From positions 2,867,501 through 2,931,500 of the forward strand of contig NZ_CP016094.1 of assembly GCF_001746835.1 (NCBI RefSeq): 64,000 bases of DNA, given 5' to 3'. This document shows positions 18,965 to 22,145 of this stretch, piece after piece; position 1 is the first letter of the stretch; each line of letters starts with the position of its first letter. Made by a program: the position numbers and the translations under genes. This DNA comes from Lacunisphaera limnophila. Its GTDB lineage: Bacteria > Verrucomicrobiota > Verrucomicrobiia > Opitutales > Opitutaceae. The notes below the pieces were generated by a model. That model searched no databases. It saw only the letters and a program-made list of their open reading frames with translations, and was not told the DNA's origin.

Positions 18965-20281
18965 ATGCCCCTTTCCGAAATGATCCCACGCCTGCTCAAG
19001 CCGACCGCCCTTGCCCTGCTCGCCGCCCTGCCGGCCCTGCTCCCGGCCCAGACCGACACCACGGCCCGCGAGGACATGCGGATGGAGGACCTGAGCCGCA
19101 ACCAGGGACAATGGTTTTCGCCGCGCAGCAAGCTGACCGTGGGCTTCCGGGTGTTGAATTCGGGCGCCACGGTTGATTTCGGGAAGCTCGGCGGCGTGTC
19201 CTCCCTGAATCCGATCGTGCCGGCCAGCGCCGGGGCGGTGGACCGGGGCTACAGCAACGGGTCCGTCATCCTCGATGTCCTGCGCGCGAATGAAGTGAAT
19301 TCGAGCGGGGTCCAGACCTCCACGCCGGGCGGGCGCTACCAGGTCACCACCCCGGTCGTGGTGGAGGGCGTGACCGTGAACCGCCTGTCGGGCGACTTTG
19401 TGAGCTACACGCCGGGCGTGACGCGCGACTGGCAGATCATGTCGCAGCAACAGCTGCTGGAGGCCCCCGGCTATGTGGCCTTCCGCAATTACAGCACCAT
19501 TTCGGAGGGCGCCACGGCCCGCAACGAGCAGGGCGCCACGGCTGGCGCCGAGCTGCAGTTCAGCCGGGAGCTCGGGCGCGGCGGCCGGTACTTCACCTGG
19601 GGGGTGGCGGCCGGGATCGCCCTGAACGACATCAGCAACAAGGCCGCCGGCACGGTGACCTCCACGTTGCGCACCTACACCGATTATTATTCGCTGAACG
19701 GCGCCTCGGCCCCGTTGAACCAGCTGGACAATCCCTACGTCGAGACCGTGTTCGACACCGACGGCGACGGCTTCGCCAACGCCTACGAGACCACGGTCAA
19801 GCTGAACGCCGTGCCGGACGCCAGCAAGAGCACAGATGTGCTGACGGCCGGGGGCGCCACCGTGACCGGACGCTGGCAGATCAAGGGCGCGTATTTCCTG
19901 GTCAAGCTGGGGCCCACGGTGCGCGCCCAGATCACCGACCGGTTTGGCATCACCGCCAGCGCCGGTTTTGCCGGGGCCTATGCCGGCACGCGCTACAGCG
20001 CGTCGGAAAAGTTTTTTGTGGCCGAGCTGCCCGGCGTGGAGCTCGAGACCCAGGATCCGGTAACGGGCGCCGATACCATCGACAGCACGGAGACGAAGTT
20101 CCTGACCGGCTACTACGCGGATTTGAACCTGGAATGGGACACGAATGGCACCCTCGGGCTCTTTGGTGGCGTGACCGCGCAGCAGCTTGATTCCTACGAT
20201 CAGAAGCTGGGCGATCGCACGGCCAAGATCGACCTGGGCAGTGCCGTCGGCCTGCGGGGCGGCGTCTCGATCAGGTTTTGA
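18965..20281 (+). CDS. Outer-membrane beta-barrel protein
   Basis: 438 residues. Signal peptide of about 28 residues (ALALLAALPALLPAQ). The mature part alternates amphipathic strands and loops (SKLTVGFRVLNSG, GAELQFSRELGRGGRYFTWGVAAG, RWQIKGAYFLVKLGP, ADLNLEWDTNGTLGLFGGV) and ends in Phe (GLRGGVSIRF), the usual outer-membrane assembly signal. One DTDGDGFANAYE stretch resembles a calcium-binding loop. Function unknown. It is the last gene of the ParA-led set, 48 bases after the coiled-coil gene, and overlaps the convergent ispH by 11 bases. Confidence 0.75.
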   Translation: MPLSEMIPRLLKPTALALLAALPALLPAQTDTTAREDMRMEDLSRNQGQWFSPRSKLTVGFRVLNSGATVDFGKLGGVSSLNPIVPASAGAVDRGYSNGSVILDVLRANEVNSSGVQTSTPGGRYQVTTPVVVEGVTVNRLSGDFVSYTPGVTRDWQIMSQQQLLEAPGYVAFRNYSTISEGATARNEQGATAGAELQFSRELGRGGRYFTWGVAAGIALNDISNKAAGTVTSTLRTYTDYYSLNGASAPLNQLDNPYVETVFDTDGDGFANAYETTVKLNAVPDASKSTDVLTAGGATVTGRWQIKGAYFLVKLGPTVRAQITDRFGITASAGFAGAYAGTRYSASEKFFVAELPGVELETQDPVTGADTIDSTETKFLTGYYADLNLEWDTNGTLGLFGGVTAQQLDSYDQKLGDRTAKIDLGSAVGLRGGVSIRF

Positions 20282-22001
20282 GTTCCGCCAGAACCTGCGC
20301 CATGTCGCGCAGGCTGCCGGGAGGAAAGAAGCCGTTGATGCGGGTGATGACCTGCTGGATGAGCCCGTCCGGGCACGAGGCCCCGCCGGTGATTAGCACG
20401 GTCTTGGGGCCCTCGCCGTCCTTCCACAGCGGCAGCTGCTCGGTGTGGCCGGCGGAACCGCGACCGGCGGAGGGGAAGACGTAGTGGAGGATCTGGGCGG
20501 GGGAGAGGATGCTCTTCTCCGACTGGATGAAGTAGGCGCGCTGGCCCAGTTGCTGTTCGCACACCCGGTAGAGCTGGTAGGTGTTGGAGCTGTTCTTGCC
20601 GCCGACGACAAAGGCGGCGTCCAGCGGGACGGTGAGTGCGCGCTGCAAGGCGTCCTGGTTGACCTGGGTGGCGTAGCAGAGCGTGTCCTTGCGGTCCGCG
20701 CCGCCGACGTGGTCGGCGGTGGCGGCGGCGCCGAACCGGGTGGCGAAGACCGACTTGAAGTACTCGATGATCGCGGCGGTCTCGTTCATCAGCAGCGTGG
20801 TCTGGTTGACCACGGCGAGGCGGTCGAGGTGGCGGGCCGGGTCGAACCCCGGGGTATGCAGGCCGGCAAAGCGCGTGAGGATGGCGGCGCGTTTGGCCTC
20901 GTCGGGCGCGGCGATGTAGTCGCCGAGCAGCCGGGCCTCGTCGAGGTTGCGGATGATGAGGGAGGGGGCGTGGCGGCGGGAATTGGAGAACGTGGCCTTG
21001 GTCTCCTCGTGTTCGCTCTTGCCGTGGATGATGACGGTGTACCCGGCACGGCCGAAGTCGCGGGCCGCCTTCCAGACCTTTTCCACCAGCATGCAGGTCG
21101 CGTCGTATTGGGCCACCTTGAGCCCCTTGCGGATCAGGCGGCGCTTGTCCTCGTCGGTCGCGCCGAAGGCGGGGATGATCACCACGTCGTCGCTGGTCAA
21201 TGAGTCCCACAGCACGGGTTCGGTGGAACCGGGTTTGACCGGGACGCCCGCCGGGCTGATCGGCACGCCCTTGTCGGTTTGCAGGTAGCGCAGGCCGCGG
21301 CCGAGGAGGTCCTCGTTCACAAACGGGTTGTGGATCAGTTCGCTGAGCATGAAGACCCGGCGGCCGGGGTTTTCGGCGAGGGTCTCGTAGGCGCGCTCGA
21401 TGGCGTTTTTCACGCCTAGGCAGAAGCCGAAGTGGCTGGGGATGATGTAGCGCACGGCGCCGAAATCGAGCACGGCGGGGGCGCTGGCAGTCCGCTCGTT
21501 GGTGCGGGCGAGGGCCTTGATGGCCTCGCAGAGCTGGCTTTGGTACAGGCTGCGGGCGGCATCGTCCTGCTGGTAGATCGCGCGGTTGCGGTGGCGTTCG
21601 ACGCGGAAGCGGTAGATGTAGTCGTTCTCGCCGAGGTGCAGGTAGGGAATCTCGATGAGGTGGGGTTCGAGCCCGGCGAGGACGGCCGCCAGGGACGCGG
21701 CCTGGGCGGGGCGGGTCTGGTCCAGTTGCTCGAGGGAGCGGAAGCTGACCTCGGCATCCAGCGGGTCGGTGTCTACTTGGGTGAAAAACACGCGGTAGGA
21801 GAGCGCGCCGGCGGTGCAGGTGAAATACTCGGCCGGGGGCAGCGGGGTGGGGAAGCAGGCCTGGAGGCGGGCGGTGGCCATCGCCTCGTCCGCACCCACG
21901 AAGGCCAGGCCCTGCCGCGTGCCAGCCTGGCGGACGGCCAGCTGGTTGCTGAGGTTGAAGGCGAGGATGACGACCTGGGCGGGGACGGACATTCCCTTCA
22001 C
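20271..22001 (-). CDS. ispH: 4-hydroxy-3-methylbut-2-enyl diphosphate reductase with N-terminal extension
   Basis: 576 residues, well above the 310-400 usual for IspH, the last enzyme of the MEP isoprenoid pathway, which carries a 4Fe-4S cluster. The IspH part starts near 184 (YIIPSHFGFCLGVKNA). Likely cluster ligands are Cys194, Cys303 (DATCMLVEKVW) and Cys442 (TLCYATQVNQ). HGKSEHEET, VNQTT and GGKNSSNT are substrate-site motifs. It looks like the cyanobacterial/plant branch. The first 180 residues (AQVVILAFNLSNQLAV, then YLHLGENDYIYRFRVERH) match no domain I recognise. The start could also be ATG 21992. Confidence 0.88.
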   Translation of the reverse strand: MKGMSVPAQVVILAFNLSNQLAVRQAGTRQGLAFVGADEAMATARLQACFPTPLPPAEYFTCTAGALSYRVFFTQVDTDPLDAEVSFRSLEQLDQTRPAQAASLAAVLAGLEPHLIEIPYLHLGENDYIYRFRVERHRNRAIYQQDDAARSLYQSQLCEAIKALARTNERTASAPAVLDFGAVRYIIPSHFGFCLGVKNAIERAYETLAENPGRRVFMLSELIHNPFVNEDLLGRGLRYLQTDKGVPISPAGVPVKPGSTEPVLWDSLTSDDVVIIPAFGATDEDKRRLIRKGLKVAQYDATCMLVEKVWKAARDFGRAGYTVIIHGKSEHEETKATFSNSRRHAPSLIIRNLDEARLLGDYIAAPDEAKRAAILTRFAGLHTPGFDPARHLDRLAVVNQTTLLMNETAAIIEYFKSVFATRFGAAATADHVGGADRKDTLCYATQVNQDALQRALTVPLDAAFVVGGKNSSNTYQLYRVCEQQLGQRAYFIQSEKSILSPAQILHYVFPSAGRGSAGHTEQLPLWKDGEGPKTVLITGGASCPDGLIQQVITRINGFFPPGSLRDMAQVLAELKT

Positions 22002-22027: not shown

Positions 22028-22069
22028 CCGCCGGGATGCCGCCGGGATGCCGCCGGGATGCCGCCGGGA
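22028..22069. repeat. Tandem repeat of an 11-bp unit
   Basis: CCGCCGGGATG occurs three times in a row, followed by a nine-base partial copy (CCGCCGGGA), just upstream of ispH (minus strand) and before the ABC permease gene. Confidence 0.85.
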
Positions 22070-22145
22070 GCCGTTGGTCCAGATGGGGCTTTATGCGGGA
22101 GGAGATGCGTTGTAACTTCTTTCCCGTTCCAGGGTTTTATCAGCC

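Follow-up and report, generated by a model that had tools for sequence, protein, structure and literature searches.

The analyzed window, a 64,000-nt stretch of Lacunisphaera limnophila (GCF_001746835.1, contig NZ_CP016094.1, positions 2,867,501-2,931,500 of the forward strand), carries on its minus strand an open frame at 20271-22001 that encodes IspH, the terminal enzyme of the MEP pathway of bacterial isoprenoid synthesis, with about 180 residues ahead of the catalytic core, as the first-pass annotation had read it. The frame holds 576 codons when counted from a GTG at 22001, and another candidate start, the ATG at 21992, lies three residues away. Residues are numbered here from the ATG unless given as "of the 576", which denotes GTG numbering. 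The gene is the sole LYTB match in the 4.2 Mb single-contig genome, in which ispG is also found, and its product is expected from its family to be the cell's only HMBPP reductase, with a core of the plant/cyanobacterial-like kind.

Several genes flanking ispH recur beside it in Opitutaceae; no MEP genes were recognized among these recurring neighbors. On the plus strand, a 438-residue frame (18965-20281) that lacks a Pfam match runs toward ispH; the frames overlap at their stops by about ten bases, and the counterpart of this frame adjoins ispH in most Opitutaceae loci. Short tandem repeats with a unit like GATGCCGCCGG lie just upstream of ispH, at 22030-22075. The features of the gene itself are collected in Table 1.

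Table 1. Features of the ispH gene, in window coordinates.
Feature	Position	Strand	Basis and remarks
ispH gene	20271..21992	-	573 codons and a stop, counted from ATG 21992; GTG at 22001 as another possible start
Predicted Nudix-fold domain without Nudix box (pseudo-Nudix), residues 1-114	21651..21992	-	AlphaFold2 models, Foldseek, VIA-align, profiles of distant orthologs
Conserved segment, residues 115-180	21453..21650	-	Occupies the position of the plant/cyanobacterial N-terminal conserved domain (NCD)
IspH/LytB catalytic core, residues 181-573	20274..21452	-	LYTB 5.9e-62; NF009911 1.9e-103; TIGR00216 over cut-off; plant/cyanobacterial-like
Cys191, likely first [4Fe-4S] ligand	21420..21422	-	GFCLGV; invariant in 77 orthologs; aligns with a core Cys in plant-type IspH
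Cys300, likely second cluster ligand	21093..21095	-	DATCML; invariant in 77 orthologs
Cys439, likely third cluster ligand	20676..20678	-	DTLCYA; invariant in 77 orthologs

The core is recognized by Pfam LYTB (PF02401) on residues 189-555 of the 576 (209.8 bits, cut-off 24.5) and by the ispH equivalog TIGR00216 (199.5 bits, cut-off 187.85). The best NCBIfam model is NF009911, which describes cyanobacterial/plant-type IspH and matches from residue 143 of the 576 with 346.6 bits, below its equivalog cut-off of 440 bits. The protein shares with this type (NF009911, PRK13371) the core with its insertions HNP.VN, PAFGA, VNQTT/ANQTT, GG.NSSNT, and GASCP, and ahead of the core it has a conserved segment at the corresponding place. 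It differs in that about 114 residues are added at the N terminus, the NCD-like segment is longer, and a further stretch lies near residues 240-262. The cluster cysteines proposed in the first-pass annotation at 194, 303, and 442 of the GTG-numbered frame are C191, C300, and C439 from the ATG, each in the motif listed in Table 1. By analogy with the family, the core would reduce HMBPP to IPP and DMAPP with a [4Fe-4S] cluster held by these three residues. In many genomes of group f29 (loci L178-L193), one in-frame TAG or TAA falls within the NF009911 match, and the open frame has 409 residues; possibly, a stop just upstream has been included in the match.

The N-terminal part is present in 31 of 132 genomes of the order; one of these matches is marginal (E 0.008) and the other 30 are strong. 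Scanning GTDB genomes added 80 loci that are 63-82% identical over nearly their full length, and all 111 extracted long-form frames, including the window gene, have at least 562 residues and carry the extension, although some of these loci are duplicates of one gene. Pairwise codon comparisons give dN/dS values of 0.13-0.44 for residues 1-112, 0-0.16 for residues 113-180, and 0.04-0.23 for the core. In most pairs, then, the N-terminal domain changes at about two to three times the rate of the core, and the purifying selection that acts on it is weaker than that on the core. These data bear directly on the possibility that the extension is miscalled and that translation begins near residue 180, where a GTG codon does lie close to the start of the core (the Val of FGAVRY). 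Such a start is very unlikely because the upstream sequence is conserved, shows the dN/dS values given above, and is confidently folded in structural models, and a wrong start codon was discarded as an explanation on the same grounds.

The extension, then, is a real part of the protein, but the 180 residues do not form the single domain that had been proposed. In an alignment of 33 diverse members, residues 1-114 vary in length and sequence, whereas residues 115-180 are strongly conserved. The latter follow the pattern PYLHLGENDYIYRFR..RNR.IYQQD...LYQSQLC.AIK...LDFGAVRY, with F129, R130, R135, N136, Y140, Y150, Q151, S152, L154, C155, K159, R163, and E166 invariant. They occupy the position at which IspH proteins from other families of Verrucomicrobiota, many of them above the NF009911 cut-off, carry their N-terminal conserved segment. 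A comparison of segments without the core gives a weak match between residues 115-180 and the plant-type NCD (10% probability, 19 columns around a common Y-(Q/R)-S). Homology to the plant/cyanobacterial NCD is therefore likely by position, not proven.

The "structured-looking" character ascribed to the N-terminal segments is borne out by AlphaFold2, which gives a pLDDT of about 85-97 across residues 11-110, both in the full protein and in residues 1-126 alone, with values of about 91-97 over this range in one of the two models. The same order of elements appears in both models: strands 6-12, 18-23, and 26-29, a helix at 36-46, strands 54-61, 64-72, and 82-85, and then C-terminal helices. A Foldseek search of the PDB gives 13 matches at E ≤ 0.001, and each of these is either a Nudix protein or MutY, the latter matched in its Nudix-like C-terminal domain. 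The best 50 rows listed by VIA-align against the PDB are overwhelmingly Nudix domains with Z scores of 11-13, headed by the MutY C-terminal domain (13.0, aligned range 234-360) and including the IPP isomerase (IDI) entry 3hyq (11.9) and 2fkb (11.6). The geranyl-diphosphate Nudix protein of rose (6ypf) is, like IDI, among the structural matches. Judging from these models, residues 1-114 have a Nudix fold.

Sequence comparison points toward the same fold by way of distant orthologs. No Pfam or NCBIfam model covers residues 1-140, and the extension by itself finds nothing reliable in Pfam, NCBIfam, or the PDB sequences. Profiles built from the N-terminal domains of distant orthologs, however, match YfcD/IDI-like Nudix proteins of the same order in hhalign with a probability of 95% (E 2e-8, about 110 columns) and, in a repeat with more sequences, of 95.9%; reversed profiles, used as controls, reach at most 0.2%. 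The alignments share a C-terminal stretch of the form W/F-x-S/T-x-EEL ... P. Because a more general, MutT-like Nudix set reaches 58% by the same method, the affinity to IDI/YfcD is a lean rather than a proof, and we only lean toward this type as the nearest detectable Nudix relatives. The Opitutaceae domains on their own give no signal against the Nudix profiles (0.4% probability), so the Nudix assignment of the window protein rests on the structural model together with the distant orthologs. Single-sequence matches are too weak to be used alone: one ortholog domain matches Pfam NUDIX at E 0.041, which is the best such match, and one of 32 matches the type I IPP isomerase model (IPP_isom_1) at E 0.051, with none of the 32 near the cut-off of TIGR02150 (IPP isomerase type I).

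None of 107 N-terminal domains contains the Nudix box GX5EX7REUXEEXGU, in strict or relaxed form. A control in which 21 of 21 Nudix proteins have the box is circular, as these proteins were picked by such motifs, but this does not affect the count of zero in 107. With the box missing from every copy, we consider the domain a dead, or pseudo-, Nudix domain, and activity as a hydrolase or isomerase is not expected from its sequence. Within the domain body, conservation is mostly at hydrophobic positions, and no polar residue is invariant there across the long clade. Beyond the first Met, the invariant or nearly invariant residues are one Phe, two Leu, and a P-Y-L in the linker. The fusion noted in the first-pass annotation stands, and the domain called unexplained is now explained in part, as a Nudix fold without its catalytic motif at residues 1-114, followed by a segment at the NCD position (115-180). 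The role in isoprenoid control or redox-partner binding that was suggested for it there may still apply.

Among 132 genomes of the order, long-form IspH (frames of at least 560 residues) occurs in five family groups (f1, f3, f11, f12, and f24), and most of the other family groups have IspH frames of about 290-390 residues. In a tree of 76 core sequences, all 31 long forms fall into one clade (support 100/99). Its sister group is the plant/cyanobacterial-like IspH found in other Verrucomicrobiota, and the short forms stand separately. It had been left to establish whether the domain occurs alone or only with IspH in the phylum. Within the 387 Verrucomicrobiota genomes sampled, we find it only fused: its profile gives 44 matches in 43 genomes, all 44 in a long IspH frame, and no stand-alone Nudix-like domain of this kind was found among the ten top first-look candidates scored in each genome. 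Nor was any long-type IspH without the domain recognized in this sample; genus groups g74 and g76 have the domain in a very divergent form. The Nudix-fold domain would have been joined to the N terminus of IspH once, in an ancestor of the clade that includes Opitutaceae.

Two genomes of the window's own family, G226 and G392, carry a short, standard-type IspH without a Nudix-like domain (loci L202 and L203), so not all members of the family need it. This is most simply explained as a replacement of the long gene. Of the two IPP isomerase families, IDI-1 passes its cut-off in 3 of the 132 genomes of the order and IDI-2 in none. Loss of an isomerase was rejected as the cause of the fusion, since hardly any members of the order have one, whether they carry the fusion or not. 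In four genomes of genus group g52 (G083, G104, G117, and G069; loci L224, L225, L226, and L227), a YfcD/IDI-like Nudix gene with an intact box is divergent from a short-form ispH, one of two short-form copies, at a spacing of about 100-170 bases between the open frames. We give this adjacency no weight as a hint of a functional link because it is confined to one genus and to short-form IspH.

We favor, with a probability of about 80%, the reading that the cell's single IspH consists of a plant/cyanobacterial-like core and a once-fused, box-less Nudix-fold domain that acts as a non-catalytic part. Since the Nudix catalytic residues are lost, the domain probably serves in structure, docking, or regulation instead of being a second enzyme, and a structural or docking role is favored among these because conservation falls on hydrophobic framework positions and on the PYL linker that leads to the core. 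Packing of the pseudo-Nudix domain onto the NCD-like segment and the core would involve its last helix together with the invariant PYL.LGEND linker, and the domain could aid stability, the docking of subunits or of a redox partner, and possibly regulation. A more specific version, in which the domain is the docking site for an electron donor (ferredoxin or flavodoxin) or for another protein of the MEP pathway, we entertain tentatively. IspH depends on an external reductant, residues 115-180, as the best-conserved portion of the extension, connect the domain to the core, and plant and cyanobacterial IspH are reported to require the NCD for complementation in E. coli (PMC12605070, which also warns that the role of the NCD is unsettled). 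No conserved charged patch was recognized in the domain, however, and there is no recognizable partner gene beside ispH in the window.

It is doubtful that the domain is instead an evolutionary remnant that now serves folding or stability at most. Its faster evolution relative to the core, its variable length, and its disappearance along with the long IspH from G226 and G392 would fit such a history, but a dN/dS well below 1 and the consistent presence of the domain in the long-type IspH recognized among the 387 genomes argue against it. The pseudo-Nudix domain could also act as a sensor, with a prenyl diphosphate (IPP, DMAPP, or HMBPP) or a nucleotide in the old pocket adjusting IspH activity. 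Several Nudix proteins bind ligands of this sort, and the structural matches to IDI and 6ypf point in this direction. The near absence of IDI families from the order also fits, since it is then probably IspH itself that determines the IPP/DMAPP ratio. The domain has lost its Nudix box, though, and its body has no invariant polar residue, unlike a conserved ligand site, so that a sensor role is possible but unlikely, and less likely than a structural or docking role. The fuller scenario, in which fusion of a once-active IDI-like Nudix enzyme to IspH was followed by loss of its catalysis and its conversion into a prenyl-diphosphate sensor that tunes the final MEP step and the IPP:DMAPP ratio in bacteria without an isomerase, we regard as improbable.

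The favored arrangement, a core with a non-catalytic Nudix-fold part, has a formal parallel in MutY, which also joins a Nudix-fold domain to a [4Fe-4S] enzyme. The MutY domain is C-terminal to the catalytic part, where it reads 8-oxoG in DNA, and the likeness implies no relation in sequence or ligand. Type I IDI and YfcD share the fold with the N-terminal domain, and the C-terminal stretch in the distant-ortholog alignments, whereas the domain described here is box-less, fused to IspH, and not expected to perform hydrolase or isomerase chemistry. A survey of IspH fusions (PMC4746011) lists RPS1, UbiA, CMP kinase, helicase, FBPase, and UDP/PNP phosphorylase as partners, along with the plant/cyanobacterial NCD; in these, too, an IspH core is joined to another domain, but a Nudix partner is absent from that list. 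Judged by title, none of the eight open-access papers that mention both "IspH" and "Nudix" deals with such a fusion. We regard it provisionally as a new domain arrangement of a known enzyme, since subscription journals are mostly outside the coverage of this search.

IspH is essential where the MEP pathway is relied on, a bottleneck in terpenoid engineering, and a drug target. The analysis gives an identity to a domain that has no Pfam or NCBIfam model, in a sole-copy and presumably essential enzyme of a bacterial lineage, and a fused domain of IPP-isomerase-like fold is a concrete, testable accessory domain on IspH. In the same genome, IspG is encoded by a long frame (702; L230, G000:C1:4196725-4198674) whose profile match falls into two parts, in line with the three-domain IspG described in Verrucomicrobia (PMC10663253).
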